From Marivirga arenosa (GTDB lineage Bacteria; Bacteroidota; Bacteroidia; Cytophagales; Cyclobacteriaceae), in assembly GCF_030503895.2 (NCBI RefSeq), contig NZ_CP129970.2:3333001-3397000 (forward strand): a DNA stretch of 64,000 bases, given 5' to 3'. Below the pieces are notes generated by a model. The model had not been told where the DNA came from, did not search any database, and saw nothing but the letters and a program-made list of their open reading frames with translations. Position numbers and translations under genes: made by a program. Shown one piece after another: positions 3,395-54,039 of the stretch (within the stretch, counting starts at the first letter, position 1; each line of letters starts with the position of its first letter).

Positions 3395-5710
3395 ATGCCT
3401 AAAAAGAAGAGAAAGAAGTCCTTTAAGAAGAAATTAATCAGCTTTTTCCTAAAAGTATCTATTGTTGGAATAATTTTTCTGATAGGTTTTTTCTATAGTA
3501 TTAAAGCAGGACTTTTTGGAGAATTACCTACCGAAAAAACGCTTTCTAATATTGAAAACTCCCAAGCAACGGCATTATTATCTGATTCAGGCGAAAATAT
3601 AGGGTTCTTATACAGAACTTATCGATCGAATGTTGCATATGAGGATCTCCCAAAGCATTTAGTAGATGCTTTAGTAGCCACTGAAGATGTTCGGTTTTTT
3701 GAGCATTCTGGTATCGATTACAGAAGTTTAGTCCGTGTACTGGTTAAGACAGTAATACTTCAGGATCGATCAGGTGGGGGCGGTAGCACTCTTTCTCAGC
3801 AACTGGTAAAAAATCTGTTTCCTAGAGAATATTCCAATAAGTTTGAATTACTAATTATCAAAATTAAGGAAGCTTTAATTGCTCAAAAACTAGAGTCCAT
3901 CTATTCAAAAGAGGAATTATTAACATTATACCTTAACACTGTAAGCTTTCCTGATAATACTTTTGGGATTGAAGCAGCAGCCAGAACTTTCTTCAATAAA
4001 CCTGTCAATAAACTTGACTTAGACGAAGCCGCTATTTTGGTGGGTAGCTTAAAAGCTACTTATACCTATAATCCCAGAATATTTCCAGAAAATAGTATTG
4101 ACAGAAGAGATATTGTGCTTTCTCAGATGAGAAAATATAAGAAAATAAGCGAAGAAGAATATAAATCTGCAAAGTCAAAAGCGATAGAATTGAATTATAC
4201 TCCTATGAAAGCTGATCAAGGCGTTGCTCCGTATTTTCGTGAACAAATTAGAAAAAAGTTAATAAAATGGGCAGATGAATATGAATCTGAAACGGGCGAA
4301 GAGATTGATATTTACGGAGATGGATTAAAGATATTTACGACTCTCAATAAGGATATGCAGATTTATGCTGAGGCTGCCATGAAATCTCATATGAAAGCTT
4401 TGCAAAAGTCCTTTGAAACGAATTGGGGAAATCAAGCTCCATGGAAGAAAAAGGCAATCTATGAAGAGATCATAAAAAGAACTCATCATTATAGAGCATT
4501 GAAAATTCAAGGTAAATCGGAAGCTGAGATTGAAAAGATTCTGAATGAAAAAAAGAAAATGCAGTTCTTTGACTGGTCAGGTAGTGAAGTAAAAACCATG
4601 AGTGTTATTGACAGTATTCAGTTGGCCTTGAAAACACTTCAATCTGGCTTTGTCGCTATGGAGCCTGGTTCAGGAGCTGTCAAAACTTGGATAGGGGGAA
4701 TAGATTATGAGTATTTTAAATATGATCATGTTGCTCAAAGTAGAAGACAGGTGGGTTCTACTTTTAAACCCATTGTTTATATGGCAGCCCTTGAAAACGG
4801 AGTTGATCCCTGTGATTATTTCCCTGCTCAAGCAGTAGCTTATGAAAATCTGGAAGGTTGGAAACCCACAAATAGTGATAATGAGGATTATACCCACATC
4901 AATGTGACTATGCAAGAGGCACTCAGGAAATCAATGAATACAGTTTCTGTAAAAATTATGGAGGAAGTGGGCATTTCTAGAGTTATTGATTTTGCAGAGG
5001 ATTTGGGTATAAATTCAGAATTACCGGAGGTGGCTTCATTAGCTTTAGGAACAGCTGAACTTAGTATGTTGGAATTGGCTACTGCCTATACCTCATTTTT
5101 AAATAGTGGTAAATCAGTAGAACCCTACTTCATTAACAGAATTGAAAGTGCTTCTGGAGATGTTCTATATGAGCATAAAGGTTCAAATCAGGCAGAAATT
5201 GCTTTTTCAGCTTTACATCAAGAAATGATGCTTAAGATGATGCAAGAAGTGGTTAATTCCGGAACAGCATCTCGATTAAGATGGAAGTATAAACTCAAAA
5301 ATGATATAGCGGGTAAAACTGGAACAACTCAAAATAATAAAGATGGTTGGTTTGTGGGGCTATTGTCTAATTTAGTAACCGTTAGCTGGACTGGGTCTGA
5401 TAATGGAAGTATTGGTTTTAAAAGTACAGCTATAGGGCAAGGTGCAAATTCGGCTTTACCTATTTTTGGTCTTTGGCTTGAAAAACTCAATCAGGATAAA
5501 GCATTAAATAAATATACTAGAAGTCGATTTGATGAACTTAGTGATAATGCTAAAAGAAAAATGGATTGCCCACCTATTAAAGAAGACGGTTTTATCAAGA
5601 AACTTTTTAATAATCCGGATAAAGAAAAAACTGAAAAGTTTGATGAAGCAGGAAAGAAAAAGGATGGTTTCTTTAAAAGAATAAAACGAATTTTGAATTC
5701 TAAGGATTAG
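3395..5710 (+). CDS. Class A penicillin-binding protein 1A (bifunctional transglycosylase/transpeptidase)
   Basis: A 771-residue inner-membrane enzyme that polymerises glycan strands and crosslinks peptides in peptidoglycan. A Lys-rich cytoplasmic tail precedes one membrane anchor (about residues 13-35). The glycosyltransferase GT51 domain follows, with catalytic Glu97 in 'EDVRFFEHSGID' and the 'STLSQQLVKN' motif. The transpeptidase domain carries S455-TFK, S513-MN and K641-TG, the three penicillin-binding motifs. A Lys/Asp-rich tail closes the protein. Order and length fit PBP1A (MrcA/PonA) of Bacteroidota. It stands alone, 35 bases before the small secreted protein gene. Confidence 0.95.
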   Translation: MPKKKRKKSFKKKLISFFLKVSIVGIIFLIGFFYSIKAGLFGELPTEKTLSNIENSQATALLSDSGENIGFLYRTYRSNVAYEDLPKHLVDALVATEDVRFFEHSGIDYRSLVRVLVKTVILQDRSGGGGSTLSQQLVKNLFPREYSNKFELLIIKIKEALIAQKLESIYSKEELLTLYLNTVSFPDNTFGIEAAARTFFNKPVNKLDLDEAAILVGSLKATYTYNPRIFPENSIDRRDIVLSQMRKYKKISEEEYKSAKSKAIELNYTPMKADQGVAPYFREQIRKKLIKWADEYESETGEEIDIYGDGLKIFTTLNKDMQIYAEAAMKSHMKALQKSFETNWGNQAPWKKKAIYEEIIKRTHHYRALKIQGKSEAEIEKILNEKKKMQFFDWSGSEVKTMSVIDSIQLALKTLQSGFVAMEPGSGAVKTWIGGIDYEYFKYDHVAQSRRQVGSTFKPIVYMAALENGVDPCDYFPAQAVAYENLEGWKPTNSDNEDYTHINVTMQEALRKSMNTVSVKIMEEVGISRVIDFAEDLGINSELPEVASLALGTAELSMLELATAYTSFLNSGKSVEPYFINRIESASGDVLYEHKGSNQAEIAFSALHQEMMLKMMQEVVNSGTASRLRWKYKLKNDIAGKTGTTQNNKDGWFVGLLSNLVTVSWTGSDNGSIGFKSTAIGQGANSALPIFGLWLEKLNQDKALNKYTRSRFDELSDNAKRKMDCPPIKEDGFIKKLFNNPDKEKTEKFDEAGKKKDGFFKRIKRILNSKD

Positions 5711-5745: not shown

Positions 5746-6150
5746 ATGAAAAAGTTATTATTATTTGTATTTATTCTTTCCAGTTCTGCTTTTACTCAAG
5801 CACAAAGTTATAGTCAAGGTTATATCCTAGGAGAAGGTGACGCTGAAGAAACATTTTATTTATTTTATGAACAAAGAAGTACTTGTACCTCCTCAGGCGA
5901 TCCTGGTCCACTTGGTAGTCCTATAAATAATAGGAATTGTTGGTATACTTATAATGAGCAAGGCTTTGTTAATTTTTGGCAAGGTTACATTGCAAATGTA
6001 GAAAATAACTACTGTAGTCAAAGAGGAACAAGCTCAGAACAATATGCCAAAGGTGTAGTTGATGGATATAAGACTAAAATGACGTTAATGTCAATGCAAT
6101 ATGGAACAAACTATTATGGAGGAGGTGCAGGGCTAATCAGCTGTAATTAA
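5746..6150 (+). CDS. Small secreted cysteine-containing protein, paralogue A
   Basis: A 134-residue protein with a Sec signal peptide (cleavage probably after residue 20, ending TQAQ). The mature part has four cysteines at 47, 65, 90 and 133, consistent with two disulfides. Its paralogue lies at 6726-7142. Shared blocks are 'SYSxGYxxGExDAxET', 'LFxEQR', 'GFVNFWQGYI', 'NYCxxR', 'GxVxGYK' and a Gly-rich end before the last Cys. I do not recognise a named family. It is exported, but no sorting domain or lipobox is present, so periplasm or outside is equally possible. It may be cotranscribed with the PBP gene, which ends 35 bases upstream. Confidence 0.8.
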   Translation: MKKLLLFVFILSSSAFTQAQSYSQGYILGEGDAEETFYLFYEQRSTCTSSGDPGPLGSPINNRNCWYTYNEQGFVNFWQGYIANVENNYCSQRGTSSEQYAKGVVDGYKTKMTLMSMQYGTNYYGGGAGLISCN

Positions 6151-6725: not shown

Positions 6726-7142
6726 ATGAAAAAAACATTATTACTGGTATTTATTTGCTTTTCTACACAATTAGTCCATTCCCAAATTCTCTCCTATTCT
6801 GACGGATATAGTTTTGGAGAAACTGACGCACAGGAAACTTATGATTTGTTCTTTGAACAGAGGAATTGTGTCTCCGAATTTGATAGTGACTGGAATGGGA
6901 CTGGTAGTCAAATTAGCTATGAAACTTGTTGGGTTTGTCCTAATGAATCAGGGTTTGTCAACTTCTGGCAAGGATACATTCTAAATTCAGAGAGAAATTA
7001 TTGTAATAACAGGAACAGTGCAAAATCTGAATACTATAGAGGAATTGTTAACGGCTACAAAGACAATATGTTGAAATTATCAATAAAATACAATGGTAAT
7101 TACTTTGGTGGGCCCGGACGCAGTTTTGTAATTTGTCCATAA
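6726..7142 (+). CDS. Small secreted cysteine-containing protein, paralogue B
   Basis: A 138-residue secreted protein with a signal peptide ending near residue 20 ('STQLVHSQ'). It aligns end to end with the 5746-6150 protein, including the invariant 'GFVNFWQGYI' block and four matching cysteines (48, 68, 93, 137). It has one extra mature cysteine at 71 in 'CWVC', a CxxC-like pair absent from paralogue A. The repeated Gly-Tyr-containing segments ('GYSFG', 'GYILN', 'GIVNGYK') suggest short helical repeats. Function unknown. A perfect palindromic terminator follows. Confidence 0.8.
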   Translation: MKKTLLLVFICFSTQLVHSQILSYSDGYSFGETDAQETYDLFFEQRNCVSEFDSDWNGTGSQISYETCWVCPNESGFVNFWQGYILNSERNYCNNRNSAKSEYYRGIVNGYKDNMLKLSIKYNGNYFGGPGRSFVICP

Positions 7143-7346: not shown

Positions 7347-8567
7347 ATGGCTAAATGTTTTGCACTAATGGGTTGGAGTTTACCCGTAATCGAGAGTATG
7401 CAAAAACTCAATAAACCTTATGTAGTGGTATCATTTCCAGATTTTGAAGATTATGCCAAAGAAAATAATATACCCTTCGTCCCTTATCAATTAGATGAGT
7501 GGAGTGATACCTCAAACTCCTTAGATTTATTAGAAAAATTAAAACCCTATGATGTAGATGTTGCTGTTCCTCTTTTTGAAGAGACAGTTGAATGGGCAGG
7601 TGCTTTAAATTCTATTTTTAGAGAGGATCCAAGAGTATTAAATAGAGCTTTTCTATTCAGAAATAAGGCTATGATGAAACGTAAGGCGTTAATTGGCGGA
7701 CTTAGGGTAGGCTTATTTGAAGAGGTTTATAATAAAGAAGGGGTAAAAGACTTTATGAAAAGGTTGAATCAGGCTAACCTTCAAATCGATGGAGAGGAAG
7801 ATAGCTGGGTTCATATTAAACCTTTTGCTTCTGCTGGTACTGTTGGGCACCGTTTGTTAAGGAGCATGCAGGATATTGAAGATAAATGTGAGGACGATGA
7901 TTTCCCATGCCTTGCAGAATCACATTTGCCCGGCAGAGAGTTTTCATGTGAGGCTTTTGTCCATAAGGGTAAAATTAGATTTCTAAATATTACTGAATAC
8001 GTGAAATTAGGGTATTCAAATTTTATTCCTGAAGGAAATTATCTGCATACAAAGCGTGATCGAATCATGCAGGAAATGCAAAAATTGGTAGATATTTTCG
8101 GAATTGAATACGGCATGATTCACCCTGAATGGTTCTTGACTGAAGATGATACCCTTAGTTTTGGAGAGGTAGCTTGTAGAATCCCTGGAGGCCATATATT
8201 AGAATTAGCAGGAAAAGCTTATGACTTTGATGCATTAGCAGCTTTTGTGTTATGTCATGATCCTAATTTATCCGAGGAAGAGCTACATGAGATTTTACCT
8301 GCACCAGATGCAAGGCCGAAAAATTTCTATGGAAATGTGATGATTTATCCTCATAAAAATCAAATTTCGAAATTGGAAATACCGGAAGAATTGAAAGAGG
8401 AACCGTATTTCTTAGATCATAATTTAGTTCCTCCAATGACAACTCAAAAAATAAACGATCGAAATGGTTTTGGGAATCATTTTGGTACAGTAAATTTCAA
8501 AGGTGAAGATCCTGATAGAATGACCGAACTATTATTACATTATGAAGATGTAGATTTTTATCATTAA
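7347..8567 (+). CDS. ATP-grasp domain ligase, first gene of an uncharacterised cluster
   Basis: A 406-residue soluble protein. The N-terminal third looks like the Rossmann-like pre-ATP-grasp domain. ATP-grasp signatures follow: nucleotide-binding Lys in 'WVHIKPFASAGTVGH', the hinge region 'ESHLPGREFSCEAFV', and the metal-binding end 'FGEVACRIPGGH'. The family joins a carboxylate to an amine or similar nucleophile through an acyl-phosphate; overall shape is nearest to carnosine-synthase/BL00235-type peptide ligases rather than D-Ala-D-Ala ligase. Substrate is unknown. It precedes a papain-like-fold gene and an alanine racemase homologue, which suggests amino-acid or dipeptide chemistry, but a hairpin at 8607-8636 separates it from them. 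Confidence 0.8.
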   Translation: MAKCFALMGWSLPVIESMQKLNKPYVVVSFPDFEDYAKENNIPFVPYQLDEWSDTSNSLDLLEKLKPYDVDVAVPLFEETVEWAGALNSIFREDPRVLNRAFLFRNKAMMKRKALIGGLRVGLFEEVYNKEGVKDFMKRLNQANLQIDGEEDSWVHIKPFASAGTVGHRLLRSMQDIEDKCEDDDFPCLAESHLPGREFSCEAFVHKGKIRFLNITEYVKLGYSNFIPEGNYLHTKRDRIMQEMQKLVDIFGIEYGMIHPEWFLTEDDTLSFGEVACRIPGGHILELAGKAYDFDALAAFVLCHDPNLSEEELHEILPAPDARPKNFYGNVMIYPHKNQISKLEIPEELKEEPYFLDHNLVPPMTTQKINDRNGFGNHFGTVNFKGEDPDRMTELLLHYEDVDFYH

Positions 8568-8606
8568 TTCGGTTAGGGTTAAACTATTAAAGATTCATCC
8601 GTTATT

Positions 8607-8636
8607 AAAGAAAGGTGTTATTTCACCTTTCTTTTT
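8607..8636 (+). terminator. Hairpin terminator or attenuator between ATP-grasp and papain-like genes
   Basis: The 11-base stem AAAGAAAGGTG, loop of 6, its complement and a T run form a good intrinsic terminator. A GTG at 8615 that would extend the next gene lies inside the stem, so that start is not credible. Partial read-through could set the ratio of the ligase to the downstream genes. Confidence 0.75.
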
Positions 8637-8656
8637 ATTTAAAAATAAACGAATAC

Positions 8657-10651
8657 ATGTCAAATACTTTAAGTATTGAACAAAGCCATCAGAGGTTCAA
8701 CGAGCTTTTTAAGGAGCTTATTTCTGCTACTTCTTTAACCAAAGCGGATAAAGCGCAAAAGCTTATGTCACAAGTAGATTTACTTGCGGCTGATCAGAAT
8801 GGCATTTCTTTTCTGTATGATAATATTACCGATCTTTCAAAAGCTGGAATATTTGCTAAAAGCAGCTGGGAAGATCCTTCAAAATTGGTCCCCACTTTAG
8901 TAAACGGAACCTTGAAAAGCGGCCATCCTAATTCCACTATTGAAATATTAAGTGAACTTAGAATGTTGGCTATTGCGGAAGGTAAATATGATCACAAATC
9001 AGTTAAAACCGATGAGGCAGAAAATTATATTCAAGAGGTTTTTGTAGGCAATCTGGAGTTCGTTTTTAAAGAACCAAAAGAAGAAACAAGGTTGAATATG
9101 GATGAAGTAGAACTTACCAAAGTCCATGAACTCTTCGTATTCCTTTCTTCCAAAACTAATCTGGATAGTATCAAAGAGAAATTAACGGAAGAACTCACTT
9201 TAATATGCGAACAAAGACCAGTGGTTACTGAAAATCAAAGGCGAATTATTGCCTTAGTGAAAGAAAAAATTGAGCTCAATCCTAATAGAAAGGAAGACCA
9301 GAAGCTTTTGCAATTTCAGAGATGTATCTATAGACCTACTAAAAACACTGAAAACAAGACTGCAGATGAATATGAAAATTCATTAAGCGAAATGTCAAAT
9401 TCAGAATTATATTCTGAATCACAGGATATGAGTAATGCTATGTTATTGTATGGCTTAGTGAGCCAATATCATGCAGTTTTATTATTACATCTTATCAATA
9501 ATGAGCATTTTTCTATAGTGCCCGTTTGCCTGGGTCTCAATCCCACAGGAGAAGTAAAATGGAATGAATATCAAGATTTTATTTCAACACTTATCCTTGA
9601 AATAATTCACCGATACAATGCACAATGTATTTATGGATTGGCAAAAATGTTAGAAAAAGGAATTTTTTCAAGACAGGCAGTACGCTCTAGTATAGATAAT
9701 ATGCGGACCATCAAAATTCATCCTAAAGTAGAAGAAAGAATTTTAAAATCAACCAATAATCCGCATCATGATGTTTCAGCAAGGCAATATTTAATTGGAG
9801 CATTATTTAGAATTTTAGGACAGCCATTGGGTGTGGGGCAGGGAAATAACCCAACTTGCCAAAGTGCTAGAGGAATTAGTATGTGGAGCCAGCACTCACC
9901 AGCCAAGTTGATCAATATGATTCAAATTGCAGCTACTCATAATGATTTAAGCTTTCGCTTTGAAGATAAAGAGATAAAAGCTTCTACCACAGCTCAAGGC
10001 TTAGTGCAAAAATTGGATCATAATTTGGATGCTGTTTCAGTAACCATTGTACCTATGCTAGACAGAATCTATAATGAAATGATGGTAAGAGCATCAGGTA
10101 GAGGAGAAGACCCTCATAAATGGGTAAATCCAGCTTTATATGGTCAATGGATCCAAATTGGTTTTGCATCAGCATATGATTACCTAAGTAATTCAATATT
10201 AGATTTTAATGGTTTTACAAAGGTATTTTATGCCATGTGTCATCCCGAATACAATGGAGGGCATAAACTAATATATCCAAATCCGGTGGGAATCTTCATA
10301 ACATCATCTAAAGGAGAAATGTTAGGTTTTCATGCTGTATCCCTACTAAGGGTGGATGAAGATCCTGAAGGAGAAATGAGAGCTTATTTTTTAAATCCAA
10401 ATAATGAAGGCCGTCAAAACTGGGGGCAGAATATTAGGCCTTCCGTATATGGAAATGGAGAGGAACATGGTGAATCTTCACTTCCTATTCATGAGTTTGC
10501 TGCACGAACTTATGCTTTTCATTATAACACTTTAGAAGTAGGGGCTAAAGTGGGTAATGTACCCGAAAATGAAGTTTTAAAAGTAAAAAGATTAGCTAAA
10601 GAAAGCTGGGGAAAATCATATACTTGGCTAGAAACTCCAAAACAATGGTAA
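8657..10651 (+). CDS. Uncharacterised protein with predicted papain-like cysteine active site
   Basis: 664 residues from the ATG at 8657; a longer frame starting GTG at 8615 begins inside a terminator stem. No signal peptide or membrane segment is evident, so cytoplasmic. The N-terminal ~380 residues are mostly predicted helical and unrecognised. The C-terminal third carries a papain-like pattern: Gln395-Gly then Cys401 ('GQGNNPTCQSA', the same six-residue Gln-Cys spacing as papain), His559 in 'GFHAVSL', and Asn580 or Asn588 in 'LNPNNEGRQNWGQ'. This predicts a cysteine peptidase, transferase or amidase; activity is not shown. Its end overlaps the racemase start by seven bases, implying translational coupling. 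Confidence 0.7.
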   Translation: MSNTLSIEQSHQRFNELFKELISATSLTKADKAQKLMSQVDLLAADQNGISFLYDNITDLSKAGIFAKSSWEDPSKLVPTLVNGTLKSGHPNSTIEILSELRMLAIAEGKYDHKSVKTDEAENYIQEVFVGNLEFVFKEPKEETRLNMDEVELTKVHELFVFLSSKTNLDSIKEKLTEELTLICEQRPVVTENQRRIIALVKEKIELNPNRKEDQKLLQFQRCIYRPTKNTENKTADEYENSLSEMSNSELYSESQDMSNAMLLYGLVSQYHAVLLLHLINNEHFSIVPVCLGLNPTGEVKWNEYQDFISTLILEIIHRYNAQCIYGLAKMLEKGIFSRQAVRSSIDNMRTIKIHPKVEERILKSTNNPHHDVSARQYLIGALFRILGQPLGVGQGNNPTCQSARGISMWSQHSPAKLINMIQIAATHNDLSFRFEDKEIKASTTAQGLVQKLDHNLDAVSVTIVPMLDRIYNEMMVRASGRGEDPHKWVNPALYGQWIQIGFASAYDYLSNSILDFNGFTKVFYAMCHPEYNGGHKLIYPNPVGIFITSSKGEMLGFHAVSLLRVDEDPEGEMRAYFLNPNNEGRQNWGQNIRPSVYGNGEEHGESSLPIHEFAARTYAFHYNTLEVGAKVGNVPENEVLKVKRLAKESWGKSYTWLETPKQW

Positions 10652-11802
10652 AACACTCTTCAAGAATAGAATTAAAACAATCGTCTTTAAAAGCCAATAT
10701 TAATTTCATTAAAAAGATAGTAGGTAATGATGTTATATTTTCATCGGTAGTGAAAGCTAATGCCTATGGACATGGTATTCATCAATTTGTTAAAATGGCT
10801 GAAAAATGTGGGGTTCGACATTTTTCAGTTGCTTCATCTTTTGAGGCAGAGGAAGTATTAGAAGCAACAGATGGTAAAAGTACCATTATGATAATGGGTA
10901 TTATCTATGAAGAAGATCTTTCTTGGGCTATAGAGCATGATATAGAATTTTTTGTTTATAATTTTGAAAGGCTGCCTAGAGCTTTAGAAGCAGCCAAAAA
11001 AGTGGGAAAGAAAGCTAAGGTGCACATTGAAGTTGAGACCGGATCGAACAGAACGGGAATGCACAAAAATGAATTCCCCAAAGCACTATCGTTTCTGAAG
11101 AAAAATGAAGATCATTTATTTTTTCAAGGTCTTTGTACACACTTAGGGGGAGCAGAAAGCCAAAGCAATCAATTTAAAATCGATAAACAAAAGAAACGTT
11201 ATAAAGAATTTTTAAAGATATGTAAAGACAAAAAGACTGAACCTAATATTAGACATATTGCATGTTCAGCAGCGGCTTTAGCAATGCCTGATACAGTTTA
11301 TGATCTGATAAGAGTAGGAGTTGCTCAATATGGTTTTTGGCCAAGCCCAGAAATCTATTATCAATATTTGAATGAGAATGGTAAAAAGTCAGATGCTTCC
11401 TTGAAACGCATATTTTCGTGGAAAACAGACATAATGGATATCCGTGAAGTACCTGAAGGAGATTTTATAGGATACGGTACTGCCTTCCAAGCTAGCCATA
11501 AAATGAATATTGCAGTTATTCCTTTAGGGTATTCAAATGGGTATCCGAGAGCGTTATCTAATAGAGGATATGTTTTAATTAGTGGGAAAAAGGCACCCAT
11601 TGTAGGTTTAATTAATATGAATCTTTTTATGGTTGATATCACCCATATTCCTGATGCTAATGTAGGGGATGAGGTAGTTTTAATCGGCAGACAAAAAAAT
11701 AATGTGATTAATGTAAGTAGCTTTACCAATAGTACTCAATTACTCAATAATGAAATGTTAAGTAGGTTACCTGCTGCAATACCAAGAACCATCGTTAAAT
11801 AA
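10645..11802 (+). CDS. Alanine-racemase-family PLP enzyme, divergent active site
   Basis: 385 residues from ATG 10645, which overlaps the previous stop (ATGGTAA). Fold type III PLP enzyme: PLP-binding Lys37 in 'VVKANAYGHG', the second catalytic base Tyr277 in 'IGYGTAF', the Arg of 'SNRTGM', the His of 'LCTHLG', and the PLP-pyridine Arg in 'LIRVGVAQYG'. Several positions differ from standard alanine racemases: the 'CMD' motif reads NMN ('LINMNLFMVDI'), the usual Asn of 'ANSAA' is Cys ('ACSAA'), and the usual C-terminal Tyr is absent ('PAAIPRTI'). It may therefore racemise another amino acid, or still be the cell's Alr; the cluster context favours a dedicated role. Confidence 0.8.
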   Translation: MVKHSSRIELKQSSLKANINFIKKIVGNDVIFSSVVKANAYGHGIHQFVKMAEKCGVRHFSVASSFEAEEVLEATDGKSTIMIMGIIYEEDLSWAIEHDIEFFVYNFERLPRALEAAKKVGKKAKVHIEVETGSNRTGMHKNEFPKALSFLKKNEDHLFFQGLCTHLGGAESQSNQFKIDKQKKRYKEFLKICKDKKTEPNIRHIACSAAALAMPDTVYDLIRVGVAQYGFWPSPEIYYQYLNENGKKSDASLKRIFSWKTDIMDIREVPEGDFIGYGTAFQASHKMNIAVIPLGYSNGYPRALSNRGYVLISGKKAPIVGLINMNLFMVDITHIPDANVGDEVVLIGRQKNNVINVSSFTNSTQLLNNEMLSRLPAAIPRTIVK

Positions 11803-12569
11803 TGAGGTTTACGGATTATGAAAATAGCGTTATTAATGAATTAGGGAAAAGGGCAGGAGATGTCCTATATCTTTCTGATATCGCACCTTTTTTCATTACT
11901 AAAAGCTGTTTGAATATTTCTACTTATTTGCAGACTGCCTACATTAAATTGGGTGATAACATGCAAAAATCACTTTCTGAATATTTTCAGCTCATAGTTT
12001 TTATCAAGAAATTGGAAGACGAAAGGATTTGTTATTCCATACCCTATACTCCTTTAGAAGATAATGCACAAGATATCGGCAATTTAAATTATAAGGATTA
12101 TCAGCAGCAAACTATTGCTGACGGTGACTTACTTTTACAGATTTTTCAATTTGCTACAAAGAAGTATGTGATATCTCCAGTTGAATATGATGAAGAGCAG
12201 ATTAAAAAAGCAGTATCTACGAATAGATTAATTCCGAACATTATTTTAGCATTACTTTTTCTGTTTTTAGCTGCCATAGGTTATCAGTCTTATCGAGATA
12301 CTCAAATACGGACAAATCAACTTGAATTGATTGAGAATAAATTAAGCAAGCAAATCGAAGTGCAGAATTTGCTTTCGGAAGAAATAAATCAACGAAACCT
12401 TGATATGGATCAATTTCATCAATTGATTCAAGATGACTTATTAATGATTAATAAAATTCTGGAAACACAAATAGATGAAATTAATCGAATTAAATATTGG
12501 AATAGAATGCAGGTTAAAGAATTAATGGAATTAAATAAGATTTTAGTTGACGATTCAACGAATCATTGA
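11802..12569 (+). CDS. Single-pass membrane coiled-coil protein of unknown function
   Basis: 255 residues, start ATG overlapping the racemase stop by one base (TAATG), so translationally coupled. The N-terminal ~140 residues are soluble and look like a small helical, perhaps winged-helix, domain. One membrane segment spans about residues 144-162 ('LALLFLFLAAIGYQ'). A Glu/Gln/Leu-rich coiled coil follows to the C-terminus. I recognise no family. Its fixed coupling to the racemase and papain-like genes suggests that it anchors or scaffolds that system at the membrane; this is inference. Confidence 0.65.
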   Translation: MRFTDYENSVINELGKRAGDVLYLSDIAPFFITKSCLNISTYLQTAYIKLGDNMQKSLSEYFQLIVFIKKLEDERICYSIPYTPLEDNAQDIGNLNYKDYQQQTIADGDLLLQIFQFATKKYVISPVEYDEEQIKKAVSTNRLIPNIILALLFLFLAAIGYQSYRDTQIRTNQLELIENKLSKQIEVQNLLSEEINQRNLDMDQFHQLIQDDLLMINKILETQIDEINRIKYWNRMQVKELMELNKILVDDSTNH

Positions 12570-47109: not shown

Positions 47110-50100
47110 CTACCTAATGAGTGTAATGTCCCCCACTGTTGTTTCTCTTCTTCCATTTTCATAAACCAATTCTAAACGATATACATAGACTCCTTGAGGC
47201 ATCAAAGTTCCCTGATAATAACCATCCCAACCTACGTTTTCATCATTGGATTCGAATAATAATTCTCCCCATCTGTTGTAAATCTTCATATTAAAATCAG
47301 ATACTCCTTCCACATAAGGTAAGAAATAATCATTCTGTAATGGGTTATCACTTCCTGTCCCAGGTCCGGCTCTACTTGGAGTAAAGGCATTAGGTACTCT
47401 TGATTCACCGCCTAATATGGTCTGCACTTGTGAAGTTAGAAAGATTGAATCAGAACATCCAGTTTCTGAATTTATTGCAATGAGTGTAATATCATAAAAT
47501 CCTGTATCGGCATATGCATGAATAGGTTCAAATTCGAAAGATTCATTTCCGTCCCCAAATTTCCAAATGAATTCATCTGCACCTTCACTTAGGTTTACAA
47601 AACGTACCTCCTCAGTAGTGAAAACTCTTCTGTATTCATCAGGAATGGTAAATGAGGCCTGTGGTGTTGCATTTACAGTTATAAATTCTTCCTTTATCAA
47701 TTCCGTTCTTTGTCCCGTGATATTGGTAGCAGAAAGGGTAACTGTATAGGTTCCCGGATTGGTATAGACATGAATCGGGTCTATAACCGCAGATGCCCTC
47801 TGACCATCTCCAAAACTCCATTGATAGGTAGATGGGTCTGCGTATTCCGAGAGATTCTCAAATTTAACAACTAAAGGTAAGCAGCCTTCTTTTGGATCAG
47901 CATCAAAATCTATAATAGGAGGGATTGCTCCAATTGTGACAAGAGTTTGAAAGCTAGAGGTACAAAGTCCATTAGTAGCAGTCATTTTAATTGTAAATTC
48001 TCCAAATGTGCCATAATCATGAGGGGCGGGATCTACATCTGTTGAAGTGGTTCCATCACCAAATTCCCACAAATACTCCCATTCATTTTTGTTTGTTGTA
48101 TTATTTGTAATATTTATCGTGCTCTCAGGCAATACCATATCCTGTGGGCTAACTTCAAAACTTGCTTCCAGTCTAGGATAAACAAATTTAAGTGCACTTC
48201 CTGACACTGTTCCAGCACAAGAATTAGGGTTATTACTATCAGTGACTGAAACTAAGGAATATGTGGTGGTAGCAGTAGGACTTACGGGTTCAAAATGTCT
48301 GTTGAAGGCGGTTGAAAAGCTGTAATTTTGGTTTCCATCCGTATAGGTTATGGTCCATGGTCCAAGACCAGTTTGATCAAATATTAAATTAGTTTCTGTA
48401 CCATAACAGGTCGTATCATTACCCGATATAACCGAAGTTGGTAATGGGTTAACATTAATACTAACAGGACCTCCTAAATTTTGCCCTGGACATCCTCTGC
48501 TATCGAATAATTCTACTATTCTATAAACAGTACTAGTTTCAGGGCTGACATTAATTGATTCTGTATTTTGGAAATTGTTGAACTCAATTGAATCTCCATT
48601 TGCAGTATAAGTTCCTTCAAATGGACCATCCCCTTCAAAATCAAAGTTTAAGGCAGTATTTACACCAAAGCATATTGTTGTATCACCGGATAAAGAAACC
48701 TCAGGTCTATCATAGGCAACAACAGTAGCAGTACCGGAAATATCTCCGCTACAACGAAATGGATTACTGGAATCTAGCACTTCAGTTAAAGTGTAAGAAG
48801 TTGTGCCACTTTGTGGATTTACATCAAAATAATAGGTGTAAGAATCTGTTGCTGGGTCGTAGCCGCTATCTGGTTGAATGTTAGATAAAGTGTAGGTCAC
48901 AGTTCCATCTGTATACCTTACGGTCCATGGAGCTGTACCAGTTAAGTTAACCCCAATTTCAGTAAAATCATTTTGACAAACATTATCTACATTTCCGAAT
49001 ATTTCAGCTGTAGGCTTTTGGTTTACTGTTATTTCCGCTATTCCATTTACCGTACCATTACAAATAGGACTGTTTCCATCTGTTACTGATATTAACTCAT
49101 AGTTAGTATCTTGAATTGGACTTACTGCTTCAATGGTTACGGGATTAGAAGTGTTCAATGTATAATTTGAGCTACCATCGGTATACACCACTTCCCATGG
49201 ACCAACTCCTGTTAAGTTGAAGATTAAATTTGTGTCATTTCCTTCACATATAGTAGTAGTTCCAGAAATACTTGCGGTTGGAGGTGTATTTACATTTACA
49301 AAAGCATTTCCAGATAATCCGGAAGGATTACAATTAGGGTTTGCCAAATCCACAACTCCTACTAAGAAGTAATTCGTTGAGTTGTTAGGATTTATGGTTT
49401 CTATATGTCCATTTTGAATGTTTTTTAATGTATCATTTTCCTGTCCATTGTTATAAATCACATCAAAATTTGTAGAGCCTGGAGGTCCTGTTAAATCAAA
49501 TCTTAAACTAGTTTCATCACCAGGACAAATTACATTTGGTCCGTTCAAGCTTAGCGTTGCACTCGGGCCAGTCAAAACATTTACAGCTAACTCACTAGGT
49601 GTACCAAAACATCCATTAGCATTTATTTCTGTAACTCTGATGTTTCCAGAAAAAACACTAAAATTAACTTCTATTTCATTTCCATTAGCATTTTGATTCG
49701 AAATAAATGCACCTAAAGGTAATTCCCATAAATAAGTTGATCCTGAAGTAAAAGGCACTGAATAGGGTACTAATTGTTCAGATGCACAAACTGTATTTGT
49801 GCCTGTTATTGGTGGACTTGTAAACTCAGGAAAAATTGTAATTTCTTGAATATTTGATGTATCGGAACATCCGCCAACTGCAGAAGAAACAATATACCTT
49901 ACCTCATATATTATATCACCAGCAGTAGTATTGGTAAAAGTTTCTGTAACAGCACCATTTGGCATTGGGCTAGTAGTGAAATCAACCCAAGGATTTCCTG
50001 AATCTTTGATTCTTTTTTGATAGACATGATTTCCTGTTAAACCTGTACCTAGTGCGGTACTTGTAAAGCTAACATCCAAGGGTGAACATCCTTGATCAAG

Positions 50101-53100
50101 TAACTTAAAAAAGCTAGCGTCTACTCTAGGATTTAGTGTTACTATTTTACTAATCGTAACAGAGCAATTATTAGGAGTTTCAGCTGTTAAGCTTACATTA
50201 TAAGTATCTGTTCCAAAAAAGGCAGCTCTATTCACAAAGGTATGACTGACTGCTGTATCTTGGTCAGTTAGTAATGTTTGCCCATCATTCCAATTCCAGA
50301 TAAATTGTGTTCCTGCCGGAAATACGCTTGTAGTGAATTCAAAGTCAAAAGTATAATCCTCTTCACAAGCTGGATTGTTTGAGGTAATATCAAAATCTAT
50401 TTGTGGTTCTTGATATACTCTAACGATAAAGGTACTGTCATTTGAACAATTTAATGCATTTGAGGCTGTTGCGGTTAATGTGATTTCATAATCAATAAAG
50501 GGATCTGTAGCTGTATTTATTAATGGATCTAATGTAATTCCATCTAAATGGCCTCCAGGACCGTTTGAAGGAGCAATAGTTTGTGTAATCAAGCCGCTGA
50601 CTGGATTGAAGACTTCTAGGCTTAGATCAAAATTGTTCCCTGAAGGGAGGGTGGAATTCTCTATTAAATCAACGGTTAATGGGGAACAGCCCTCACTAAT
50701 ATTCGTCCTGAAATTTGGAGTAGGAGACTCAAATATTTCTATATCAACTGGAGTTGATAATCCAATTCTACAATTGCTGAGCAAGTTTGCAATTAAGTCA
50801 ATTCTATATTGACCATCGGAAGTAAATTCGTATGGTATAGCTGTACTAAATTCCTCATTTCCTGTTTGATCTACACCTTCGATTGTTTCTATTAAATCGT
50901 AATCTGTAGTTACTGTATTATACTTATAGATTTCAAATTCCCATTCGGTTCCTGCTGGAATAGTTGAAGTAGTGGTATTTTGTAAATCATAGGTAGAGGG
51001 TAAACAATCTTGAGAATTACTTGGTGTAAAGTCAATATCAACTGTAATAACATCAGCATTTGGAATGCTAGAAGTCGTAGATTCAAGGTCACTTTGACAT
51101 AAAACTAGATTTTCTGTATATAATTCAACTGTAAAATCTAAATCAGGCTCAGTATTTAGAGGACGGTCATAAACTACAGTAAATTCAGCATTTGCATCAT
51201 CTTGTATGGCAGATCTTAATTTTGAGTTATCAGTTGAATTTACAGACCAAAAGTAATCTATGTTTTCTTGTACTGCCTTGTAAGTGTATGAAACTGAATC
51301 GCATGTAATTAAAGAGTCTATCACATTAAATTCAGCTGTAGGTTTTGGGAATAATCTTACTGTTTCATTTCGGTCAGTTACACAAAAGTCGTCTGTTATC
51401 ACCTGAAGATTAATGGTGAATACTTCTTGACTAACTGAGGGATACACATTTTCAAAGTTGAAATTAAATCTTTCAGGTTCAGGATCAGTGGCTACCTCTA
51501 TTGTAGTTTCAGTTAAGGTATCACCTATACCGTCTGTAATTGTCCAGATATATTGATCAGCATTGAAAGTCTGAGTGTTTGCGTCCGTACGAAAATAAAA
51601 TTCATAAGGTGAACAATATACAGTCAGGTTATCATAAGAATCTGCTGTTGATCCCGGTGATGGGCCAGGATCTCCTTCAAATATATCAAATCCTGCGGCT
51701 TGGGCAGGTAGTAAAGTTACAGTAAGTGGTCCTTCTCTCGTTTCACAATTATTGTCTCCAACGGCTATAAAGTATAAATCATAAGTGTAAGGTGATCCCG
51801 AATTTGGATTGGGTAGATCACCAACATTTGGATTAATTACTGCTGAATCAATTGGTGCAGGAAAAGAAGCTGGGAAAGCAGGAAATATTCCATCATTAGC
51901 ATTATCTTCTGAAACAATTTCTACATAATATCGATCAACTGCAGGATCAGTTTGACCAGCAGGGGAGGTGTTGACAATTTCAATGGGAGTACCCGGACAA
52001 AGAGGCTGAGTATAATCGATACCGTTTTCAGCAAATTCAAAATTTGATATAGGGTTGTTTTTAACCACAACTGACATCGTATCCACTGGTGATACACAAC
52101 CATTAGCGGTGGATACTCTTAAAGCTACATTATAAGTACCTGCGGCAGGATAAGTAAAAGCATATTCACCTGCTGTAAAATCGCCTGCATTTAAGCTAGT
52201 GATGGTTTGTGTATCAAACGTGCCTTCGGGATCGGTAGTGTAATCAGTATTATCAAAATCAAATACAAATTCCCAAGTATCGATTGCATCACCATTTACA
52301 ACTGTTGGGATATTAGAGAGATCTGTAAAAATGGTCATATCACCTTCACAGATTTCCGTAGCACTAAAATTAGCAATTGGATTGTCATATACAAAAACTG
52401 ACTCTGTTAAATTACTAGGACAAGTAGGGGCAACAGTAGAGGTCGCAGTTAAAGTAATTTCGTATTCTCCAGGATTTCCAAATTCAAAATCTACTGTATT
52501 TCCACTAACAGAACTCGTAATAGGAAAACTAGCTAAAGGAGGCGAAATTACTCCGGCATCAGTCGCAGCTCCTGGACCAGAAATCTGATCTACAGTCCAT
52601 GAAAATCCATCCGCATTTGTGGAAATATCTGTAACTGTTGTATTTAAAGTTTCACAAGCAGATGTGTTTGATATTGTGAAATCAGCAATAGGACCATCTG
52701 ATATTTCTAAATCAATAGTCTCCAAGAATACACAAGGAACTCCAATATTTCCTCGTGTTATTCTTAAGGCTACTGTTATTGGACTTCCTACAAATGAGTT
52801 ATCATAAGAAGTATTCACATTATTTCCCGTATCATCAGTGTTAAATGTTATCCCATCATATGTGAAATCCCATTCAATTAAATCATCTCCAATAGTTGCA
52901 CTATTATTACGGAAATTAACCGTTTCATTCGCACAAAAGCTAGCAGTTGGAGTAGCTGTCCCATCTTCCGGAAGCCAAACTCCTGCAGTTGATGGGTCTT
53001 CCACTTCCGGAGTAGGATTTGGCGCTGGAACAACTTCAATAGTTAACGTAGTTTCTTCTGGTGGATTTTCGGCTGTAGTTGCATCAGTGAAATCAGGTGT

Positions 53101-54039
53101 GCCTGGAATATCTGGATCATCAAATGGATTACATACATTCCACGCTCTTAGAGTGATCTCAAATGTTTGACCAACCAATGTATTTGTTCCATCTATTGTG
53201 ATAGTACCAGTAGGATCCATGTCAAGATCAGCAGCAACTTCGTTTATTCCAGGATCTACTTGTACAATTTCCCCAAAATCCGGATTTGTATAACCACCTG
53301 GGAAAACATTAAAATCTTCATTTGGAATATTGATACCTGAAATATTTACATCAGGTATAGGATTAGCACCGTCAGTATTATATACCCATTGAAACCATCT
53401 TGTTCCATTGTTATTAGATAAAGGGCAATTGTAAATACTTTGATTTTCTAGTGGATTTATCACTACATCTTGTCCTTCGCATATAGTTAAAAGAGGAGCT
53501 TCTTCAATATTTAAATTCCCAGGAGCAATATTATCTCTTTCCCAATAAACTGTACTAGCACTATTATCTGTACCAGGACATATTAATGCACTGGGATGAG
53601 TTTGTGGATTTTCCCCTGTATCAACAAAAACTAATTGAACAGTAATTTCAAAATCACAATTTGTTAGTCCTGCTGGATATTGATAATAAGCATATCGATC
53701 ATTAGCAAACAATGGAGCTCCTGCTGGTGCTACAGGAGGAGTATTATCAATATAATAGTCACCAAATTCTAATATTGTAGGATAGTAATTTTCAGTTCCA
53801 TCTCCCCAATTAACCAAAATATATACATCTGTAGCAGGTGGTAGATCTACAGAAGAGTATCTTTTCCCTATCCATACCTCTTTTTCTCCACCACAAAATT
53901 TATTTTCAATGGGATCAAATCCTCCAACTCCACTGGTGGCTCCGCATTGTGAGAAAACTTCATGGGTTCCACAAAAAATAAGAACTAAGGAAAATAATCC
54001 AATTCTTAAAAATTTGTATGTACAAGCCATTCTAACCAT
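47110..54039 (-). CDS. Giant PKD/Ig-like repeat adhesin with gliding-motility-type (T9SS type B) C-terminal domain
   Basis: 2309 residues with a signal peptide in the first ~30 residues ('LFSLVLIFCGTHEVFSQ'). Many PKD domains follow ('WDWDGQ'- and 'YDFGDGT'-like strands with 'PAPHDYGTFGEFTI' and 'DPIHVYTNPGTYTVTL'). The region about residues 1480-2000 has at least five repeats of an Ig-like unit with 'ISGxxTICxG' and 'GPWxVxYTDG'. The C-terminus ('VPNAFTPSRAGPGTGSDNP', 'IYNRWGELLFES', 'GVYVYRLEL') is the type B sorting domain. Expected role: cell-surface adhesion, perhaps moved by gliding machinery, exported with the PorP/SprF protein encoded downstream. Confidence 0.93.
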   Translation of the reverse strand: MVRMACTYKFLRIGLFSLVLIFCGTHEVFSQCGATSGVGGFDPIENKFCGGEKEVWIGKRYSSVDLPPATDVYILVNWGDGTENYYPTILEFGDYYIDNTPPVAPAGAPLFANDRYAYYQYPAGLTNCDFEITVQLVFVDTGENPQTHPSALICPGTDNSASTVYWERDNIAPGNLNIEEAPLLTICEGQDVVINPLENQSIYNCPLSNNNGTRWFQWVYNTDGANPIPDVNISGINIPNEDFNVFPGGYTNPDFGEIVQVDPGINEVAADLDMDPTGTITIDGTNTLVGQTFEITLRAWNVCNPFDDPDIPGTPDFTDATTAENPPEETTLTIEVVPAPNPTPEVEDPSTAGVWLPEDGTATPTASFCANETVNFRNNSATIGDDLIEWDFTYDGITFNTDDTGNNVNTSYDNSFVGSPITVALRITRGNIGVPCVFLETIDLEISDGPIADFTISNTSACETLNTTVTDISTNADGFSWTVDQISGPGAATDAGVISPPLASFPITSSVSGNTVDFEFGNPGEYEITLTATSTVAPTCPSNLTESVFVYDNPIANFSATEICEGDMTIFTDLSNIPTVVNGDAIDTWEFVFDFDNTDYTTDPEGTFDTQTITSLNAGDFTAGEYAFTYPAAGTYNVALRVSTANGCVSPVDTMSVVVKNNPISNFEFAENGIDYTQPLCPGTPIEIVNTSPAGQTDPAVDRYYVEIVSEDNANDGIFPAFPASFPAPIDSAVINPNVGDLPNPNSGSPYTYDLYFIAVGDNNCETREGPLTVTLLPAQAAGFDIFEGDPGPSPGSTADSYDNLTVYCSPYEFYFRTDANTQTFNADQYIWTITDGIGDTLTETTIEVATDPEPERFNFNFENVYPSVSQEVFTINLQVITDDFCVTDRNETVRLFPKPTAEFNVIDSLITCDSVSYTYKAVQENIDYFWSVNSTDNSKLRSAIQDDANAEFTVVYDRPLNTEPDLDFTVELYTENLVLCQSDLESTTSSIPNADVITVDIDFTPSNSQDCLPSTYDLQNTTTSTIPAGTEWEFEIYKYNTVTTDYDLIETIEGVDQTGNEEFSTAIPYEFTSDGQYRIDLIANLLSNCRIGLSTPVDIEIFESPTPNFRTNISEGCSPLTVDLIENSTLPSGNNFDLSLEVFNPVSGLITQTIAPSNGPGGHLDGITLDPLINTATDPFIDYEITLTATASNALNCSNDSTFIVRVYQEPQIDFDITSNNPACEEDYTFDFEFTTSVFPAGTQFIWNWNDGQTLLTDQDTAVSHTFVNRAAFFGTDTYNVSLTAETPNNCSVTISKIVTLNPRVDASFFKLLDQGCSPLDVSFTSTALGTGLTGNHVYQKRIKDSGNPWVDFTTSPMPNGAVTETFTNTTAGDIIYEVRYIVSSAVGGCSDTSNIQEITIFPEFTSPPITGTNTVCASEQLVPYSVPFTSGSTYLWELPLGAFISNQNANGNEIEVNFSVFSGNIRVTEINANGCFGTPSELAVNVLTGPSATLSLNGPNVICPGDETSLRFDLTGPPGSTNFDVIYNNGQENDTLKNIQNGHIETINPNNSTNYFLVGVVDLANPNCNPSGLSGNAFVNVNTPPTASISGTTTICEGNDTNLIFNLTGVGPWEVVYTDGSSNYTLNTSNPVTIEAVSPIQDTNYELISVTDGNSPICNGTVNGIAEITVNQKPTAEIFGNVDNVCQNDFTEIGVNLTGTAPWTVRYTDGTVTYTLSNIQPDSGYDPATDSYTYYFDVNPQSGTTSYTLTEVLDSSNPFRCSGDISGTATVVAYDRPEVSLSGDTTICFGVNTALNFDFEGDGPFEGTYTANGDSIEFNNFQNTESINVSPETSTVYRIVELFDSRGCPGQNLGGPVSINVNPLPTSVISGNDTTCYGTETNLIFDQTGLGPWTITYTDGNQNYSFSTAFNRHFEPVSPTATTTYSLVSVTDSNNPNSCAGTVSGSALKFVYPRLEASFEVSPQDMVLPESTINITNNTTNKNEWEYLWEFGDGTTSTDVDPAPHDYGTFGEFTIKMTATNGLCTSSFQTLVTIGAIPPIIDFDADPKEGCLPLVVKFENLSEYADPSTYQWSFGDGQRASAVIDPIHVYTNPGTYTVTLSATNITGQRTELIKEEFITVNATPQASFTIPDEYRRVFTTEEVRFVNLSEGADEFIWKFGDGNESFEFEPIHAYADTGFYDITLIAINSETGCSDSIFLTSQVQTILGGESRVPNAFTPSRAGPGTGSDNPLQNDYFLPYVEGVSDFNMKIYNRWGELLFESNDENVGWDGYYQGTLMPQGVYVYRLELVYENGRRETTVGDITLIR

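Follow-up and report, generated by a model that had tools for sequence, protein, structure and literature searches.

Four consecutive genes of Marivirga arenosa, here named B (gene 1, ligase), A (gene 2), C (gene 3, racemase) and D (gene 4, membrane protein), lie in a stretch of 64,000 nucleotides of contig NZ_CP129970.2 (positions 3,333,001-3,397,000), which is the window of this analysis and within which positions are counted. Of the 80 loci that match A best in a large genome collection, 75 have B, an ATP-grasp ligase, directly upstream of A and in the same orientation. As B is upstream in 75 of these loci and C is present in 52, the arrangement is not due to chance. B and A form the core pair of what appears to be a widespread and previously undescribed small-molecule pathway. 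The unit is probably involved in the metabolism of amides of ornithine or of another diamino acid, a reading to which we give a probability of about 0.65 and which draws mainly on the association of A with genes for ornithine biosynthesis. The full proposal, in which such an amide is synthesized, turned over and used as a compatible solute, is tentative and falls somewhat short of even odds.

Open reading frames on the forward strand are confirmed at 7347-8567 (B), 8615-10651 (A), 10624/10645-11802 (C) and 11802-12569 (D). The features discussed below are the following, with the residue numbers of A counted from the GTG codon at 8615:

7347-8567, + strand: B, ATP-grasp ligase of the L-amino-acid (dipeptide) ligase fold group, 406 residues (Pfam, PDB, Foldseek)
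8607-8634, + strand: terminator-like hairpin of 11 pairs and a T-rich tail, between B and A
8657-10651, + strand: A, N-terminal helical part and C-terminal part with the order Q-C-H-N (model, alignment)
9857-9859, + strand: codon of the putative catalytic Cys415 of A (alignment)
10331-10333, + strand: codon of the putative catalytic His573 of A (alignment)
10394-10396, + strand: codon of the putative catalytic Asn594 of A (alignment)
10645-11802, + strand: C, alanine-racemase-family protein, 385 residues, extra copy (TIGR00492)
11749-11751, + strand: codon of Asn369 of C (alignment with Alr2 and MurF-Alr)
11802-12569, + strand: D, membrane protein, lineage accessory (hydrophobicity, BLAST)

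Conservation of the pair and its enzymes

A collection of 84,980 species contains at least 593 stretches that encode relatives of A, from which the best 80 were kept. Four of the five loci without B (L029, L045, L058 and L063) start at a contig edge, and L074 lacks the gene. C is absent from all 17 Bacilli and all 8 Gemmatimonadota loci, three of which (L069, L075 and L090) end just past A. B, A and C are thereby co-conserved in set and order, and the scattered distribution that the original prediction had named as its refutation is not what the relatives show. The same prediction proposed a peptide containing a D-amino acid: a small peptide-like amide agrees with the folds nearest to B, but the D-residue is not essential, because the Bacilli and Gemmatimonadota loci have no C.

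The best 80 loci belong to Bacteroidota (46), Bacillota (17), Gemmatimonadota (8), Balneolota (5), Rhodothermota (1), Bdellovibrionota (1) and Pseudomonadota (1), with one unassigned; the Rhodothermota and Bdellovibrionota records are bins, and the Pseudomonadota record (L037), a bin named as Rickettsiales, has an A that sits among those of Marinoscillum in the tree. The distribution of A is patchy, and the full-length protein is encoded by 2 of the 193 further genomes sampled from the window's order and by 1 of 394 further ones from its class. It is present in 21 of 36 genomes of the family of Bacillus sp. BHET2 and in 47 of 299 of that order, in 7 of 146 of the class of L061 and in 4 of 150 of the phylum of L065, in counts that are centred on known carriers and include the centre. 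In Halomonas sp. PA16-9 the B-A pair is carried by a megaplasmid, which is the sole plasmid case, and spread of the pair by plasmids was not retained as an explanation. A viral origin was also rejected, as none of 88 stretches with the pattern in viral contigs encodes a relative, and a weak match to A in G176 (67 residues, internal stops, E = 9.4e-4) was treated as chance. Beyond A, B and C, no neighbouring gene cluster occurs in more than 15 of 82 loci. A search of the open-licence literature for such pathways or their analogues found no description of the B-A pair or of the A family, and the terms ATP-grasp, ornithine, carboxylate-amine and ligase are absent from a paper on osmotic stress in Jeotgalibacillus (PMC5027565).

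B matches the Pfam model ATP-grasp_4 at E = 4.8e-5, which is under Pfam's cut-off, and its sole PDB sequence match is RizA (4wd3, 1.7e-8). The predicted structure of B has a predicted local distance difference test score (pLDDT) of 89.6, and the first four Foldseek ranks are taken by RizA, 3vot (two chains) and BacD, with a best E of 1.5e-24. By fold B falls with the L-amino-acid ligases (Lal), among which RizA and BacD are nearest, and the earlier label of ATP-grasp ligase suits it well.

Neither Pfam nor NCBIfam assigns A to a family at E ≤ 1, and its PDB sequence matches are at chance level only. It is a conserved enzyme-like family present in several phyla and unmatched in the versions of Pfam and NCBIfam used here. 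Its predicted structure (pLDDT 88.7) is helical over the first ~430 residues and mixed after them, and no strong N-terminal hydrophobic segment is present. Gln409, Cys415, His573 and Asn594 are invariant in 125 of 125 aligned homologues, a set in which a few loci are entered twice and which includes 12 paralogues from Bacilli that are not preceded by B. The spacing between Gln and Cys is that of Gln19 and Cys25 of papain. Foldseek relates the A model only weakly to papain-type peptidases and helical solenoids, with no match that reaches E ≤ 0.001 (best E 0.17, probability 0.35). The papain-like fold first proposed for A is therefore only weakly supported: the residue order of that fold is kept without exception, but the fold matches are not significant.

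C passes the models of alanine racemases (PF01168, 153 bits; PF00842, 131 bits; TIGR00492, 284 bits with a cut-off of 168), by which it is certainly a member of this family. The same genome encodes a MurF-Alr fusion (1082 bits, cut-off 804) and Alr2, also over the cut-off, so C is not the housekeeping enzyme, let alone the only one, which was the other refutation considered at the outset. Asn369 of C (P0003) occupies the position where Alr2 and MurF-Alr carry Tyr, presumably Tyr354 of the Geobacillus alanine racemase, and it is retained in at least 97% of 52 sequences. An Asn at this position is tied to larger substrates, as in the serine racemase of the VanT type. The solved alanine racemase 4y2w is likewise without Tyr there, and therefore Asn369 does not exclude alanine as the substrate of C. 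Elsewhere in the window's genome (L013, 2995-8530) there is a row of genes for a sodium:solute symporter, a GNAT, an ornithine-racemase-like protein (NF040742, 312 bits, below the cut-off of 480), an M20 peptidase and Alr2, which is nearer to C (43%) than MurF-Alr is (27%). The products of this row perhaps take up and degrade a related D-amino-acid compound.

Ornithine genes, acetyltransferases and hosts

Genes of the set argB-argD-argC-argJ adjoin the B-A-C unit in seven loci, two of which have an incomplete set; they were identified on Marinoscillum-type proteins and elsewhere assigned by clustering. The set is located downstream of C in L011, L034, L041 and L037 (in which no argB is seen) and upstream of B in L047, L175 and L043 (in which it is cut by the contig edge). 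The distance from argJ to B is about 33 bases in L043 and L047 and 201 bases in L175. A quick tree of A requires five changes of the arg labels, with argJ-type neighbourhoods in three separate places, and does not tell gains from losses. In addition, eight Cyclobacterium loci have an arginine operon with argG divergent from B.

The association extends to whole genomes. ArgJ is found in 35 of 42 genomes with A (28 of 32 and 7 of 10) and in none of 46 genomes without it (pooled Fisher p = 6e-18, kinship not controlled), where three of the hits in A-bearing genomes are split or partial (G1223, G1216 and G1219). Seven of the A-bearing genomes, all of which have ArgJ, are Saprospiria or Flavobacteriia, for which the sample holds no A-less control, and excluding them leaves 28 of 35. 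A small contrast within the family f2 points the same way: G093 has both A and ArgJ, and G001 and G080 have neither. Each of the Marinoscillum genomes G194 and G195 has two copies of ArgC, and the copy linked to ArgJ is the one that adjoins B-A-C. This link to ornithine biosynthesis is the strongest clue, and it goes beyond what the letters of the window show. It turns an anonymous gene pair into a testable metabolic question, namely what is made from ornithine.

Bacilli loci present acetyltransferases as neighbours. A GNAT cluster that contains an AblB is found near B-A in eight Bacilli loci. In five of these its gene immediately precedes B, at 46-147 bases, and in the other three it is located past A. 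A different GNAT gene, at 113-180 bases from B and divergent from it, is present in eight loci; in total 16 of the 48 Bacilli loci read have one or the other. The Halobacillus member passes TIGR03827 (AblB; 244 bits, cut-off 205), and the remaining ones are assigned by clustering. Both N-epsilon-acetyl lysine and N-delta-acetyl ornithine are among the compounds that Halobacillus halophilus accumulates (PMC2412884). Bacilli also have paralogues of A. A second type, without B (L154 and L156-L159), shares its locus with an M20 peptidase in all five loci read, adjacent in two, and Pfam confirms M20 for two. A third, shorter type (606-629 residues; L084, L092, L160, L161, L163 and L164) is located close to a B-A pair on the same strand and retains the putative catalytic residues.

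Many host names point to saline places. Of the record titles of the best 80 loci, 20 contain a term from a list on sea, salt, mangrove or alkali, the codes CSSed, T1Sed or T3Sed are present in 16, five more have putative lake codes, and 39 are uninformative. CSSed10, CSSed11, T1Sed and T3Sed10 are hypersaline soda-lake sediments in the passages of PMC6146748 that concern them, and codes starting with CSSed16 were read as soda-lake ones by analogy. Ectoine synthase, tried as a mark of a partner or replacement solute, is over its cut-off in 2 of 36 A-bearing genomes, a count that says little because it has no A-less control.

Based on these observations, B and A would be the central enzymes of a pathway in the cytosol for the synthesis and turnover of a small dipeptide-like amide. 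B would activate an acid and join an amine to it, as ligases of its fold do, and A, as a putative papain-type thiol enzyme, would cleave, transfer or rearrange the amide. Ornithine or a closely similar diamino acid is the most probable amine, given that the argB-D-C-J genes adjoin the unit and co-occur with it and that N-acetyltransferase genes are among its neighbours. In Bacteroidota-type bacteria C would provide one building block, probably one larger than alanine, in its D-form, and in other phyla acetyltransferases would modify the free amine. As hosts with habitat-telling names are mostly from the sea, salt or soda lakes, the amide would most likely build up in the cell as a compatible solute. 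The most specific form of the proposal is doubtful: a new class of compatible solutes, formed by ornithine or diamino-acid dipeptides (with a D-residue in Bacteroidota), which salt-living bacteria of at least six phyla would make with a ligase and a new family of solenoid-borne papain-like transferases.

Several observations weigh against this explanation. The comparison of ArgJ is uneven, as the A-less genomes come from the window's order and the A-bearing ones are the best matches to the window, near relatives and seven genomes of other classes included. The window's own genome (G000) has A, B and C but neither ArgJ nor ArgC, and its best arginase match has 49 bits, compared to a family cut-off of 227.6. 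ArgJ is also missing from six other A-bearing genomes (G199, G200, G1222, G1229, G601 and G1237). Arginase reaches 45-70 bits in G000, G199, G200 and G1222, with no full match. The papain fold of A remains below significance, 32 of the 48 Bacilli loci show neither GNAT, and the habitat counts, with nearly half of the titles silent, stand without a background rate of saline hosts and include a few hosts that look non-saline, such as Neobacillus terrae.

As to the genomes that lack ArgJ, ArgC is absent from G000 and G199 and has one copy in G200. Arginase is found in G1229 (239 bits) and G601 (231 bits), both over the cut-off, and in G1237 just under it (223.5 bits); as a source of ornithine in such genomes it was set aside, because it is common in A-less genomes too and is not specific to carriers of A. 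It may be that the lineage of the window came to use another source of ornithine or another substrate.

Locus layout and accessory genes

The four genes were first described as consecutive, with a seven-base overlap (10645-10651) and a one-base overlap (11802), and both overlaps are recovered in the list of open reading frames. From the GTG at 8615 the frame of A has 678 residues, and from the ATG at 8657 it has 664. The ATG is the more likely start, because 664 residues is the length of many close homologues and most matches start at or after residue 14-15, which corresponds to this codon.

The hairpin with a T-rich tail between B and A suggests that B is perhaps partly uncoupled from genes 2-4, and the ligase may be under separate control from A-C-D. 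The scanned stretch contains 8 such terminator-like sites, compared to 3.8 expected from shuffles. The gap holds a stable hairpin in 13 of 15 relatives, all 13 from Bacteroidota (L014-L020, L025, L028, L039, L046, L052 and L060), with no strong one in L021 and L022; a sixteenth relative, L030, has a gap too short to be counted. The number of promoter sites found by a scan is not above that of shuffles.

D has one strong hydrophobic segment at residues 143-161. BLAST finds relatives of it in 3 of 80 loci, and a remote relative is present in two Marinoscillum loci. D is thus a lineage accessory outside the conserved system. The four genomes with a close form of D are G000, G199, G200 and G1222, and all of them are without ArgJ. 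An anti-phage defence system was rejected: A, B and C have no match to PADLOC models, and the only one of D, to a specificity subunit of type I, is weak (E = 0.0048).

The frames at 5746-6150 and 6726-7142 encode two small proteins that resemble each other; both have several Cys and N-termini that look signal-like by eye, and neither has a Pfam match at E ≤ 1. On the minus strand, an open frame of 2309 residues is found at 47110-54039.

Alternative explanations and known systems

The B-A unit could also be a ligase and amidase pair with no osmotic role, by which an amine or amino acid is stored and set free again as a nitrogen, polyamine or redox buffer, in a way similar to the glutathionylspermidine synthetase/amidase. 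An ATP-grasp ligase that is almost always next to a putative thiol enzyme would fit such a cycle, as would the second-type paralogues of A, which lack B and share all five loci read with an M20 peptidase. Neither A nor B matches CHAP or GSP_synth in Pfam, however, and the hosts with telling names are biased to saline places, so that we consider this explanation unlikely, if a serious candidate. The long helical part of A, which is of the protein-binding kind, and the importin- and catenin-type solenoids among its weak, non-significant fold matches would agree instead with a modification of proteins, in which B attaches an amino acid and A, on its helical scaffold, removes it. This is improbable, since the nearest folds of B, as we understand their function, act on free amino acids, and no constant substrate protein is seen nearby, given that no neighbouring cluster beyond A, B and C exceeds 15 of 82 loci.

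A pathway for an antimetabolite, with the adjacent argJ set as a supply or as an insensitive target copy, is suggested by mangotoxin, which, in the passages of PMC13185094 that describe it, is built by ATP-grasp ligases and is a proposed inhibitor of ArgJ. The adjacent argJ does not seem to be a spare copy, because ArgJ is single-copy in five of the six searched genomes with such an argJ (G1224 has two hits, and G986 is not included). Moreover, argJ is not seen beside the unit in most A-bearing genomes, the window's genome has no ArgJ, and no exporter family recurs across lineages among neighbours that were mostly not annotated one by one, all of which makes this pathway very improbable. Equally improbable is a role in the cell wall, with C producing a D-amino acid, B adding it to peptidoglycan precursors and A trimming them. 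ATP-grasp ligases do put D-amino acids into cell-wall cross-links, as passages of PMC2922099 describe, and a penicillin-binding protein is encoded upstream in the window (3395-5710), but the 17 Bacilli and 8 Gemmatimonadota loci (with the three that end just past A) have no C, and A lacks a strong N-terminal hydrophobic segment.

Among known systems, RizA (4wd3), the Bacillus licheniformis ligase (3vot) and BacD/YwfE share with B the ATP-grasp fold and are its top structural matches, but they are only 12-19% identical to it in the Foldseek alignments, and the reaction of B is predicted from the fold. We know of no ligase of this type that is paired with an A-type protein. Papain-clan peptidases such as Pd_dinase (5wdk) and staphopain have the same Q-C-H-N order and are among the top weak fold matches of A, from which they differ by the lack of any significant sequence or fold match and by the long helical N-terminal part of A. 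The glutathionylspermidine synthetase/amidase couples an ATP-grasp amide ligase to a papain-like thiol amidase, as B-A may do, in a fused protein with CHAP and GSP_synth domains, neither of which is found in A or B at a Pfam E ≤ 1. As in alanine and serine racemases (TIGR00492, VanT), both Alr domains are over their cut-offs in C, which has Asn where the two other TIGR00492 proteins of its genome keep the active-site Tyr.

The mangotoxin mbo pathway, in the available passages of PMC13185094, makes a small peptide with ATP-grasp ligases, uses arginine and has ArgJ as its proposed target, so that it resembles the B-A unit in its ligases and in the involvement of ArgJ. In B-A loci, in contrast, ArgJ is encoded within a biosynthetic set, and these passages note no counterpart of A in mbo (PMC13185094). 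The HDO oxidase of mangotoxin is not among the domains of the four proteins of the window.

Finally, the osmolytes N-acetylglutaminylglutamine amide and N-epsilon-acetyl-beta-lysine are derived from amino acids, and it is a GNAT cluster with an AblB that accompanies B-A in the eight Bacilli loci. To our knowledge, neither A nor B is part of these two pathways. If the solute role is true, B and A would provide a biosynthetic route for an osmolyte that should be visible in the metabolomics of marine and soda-lake bacteria.

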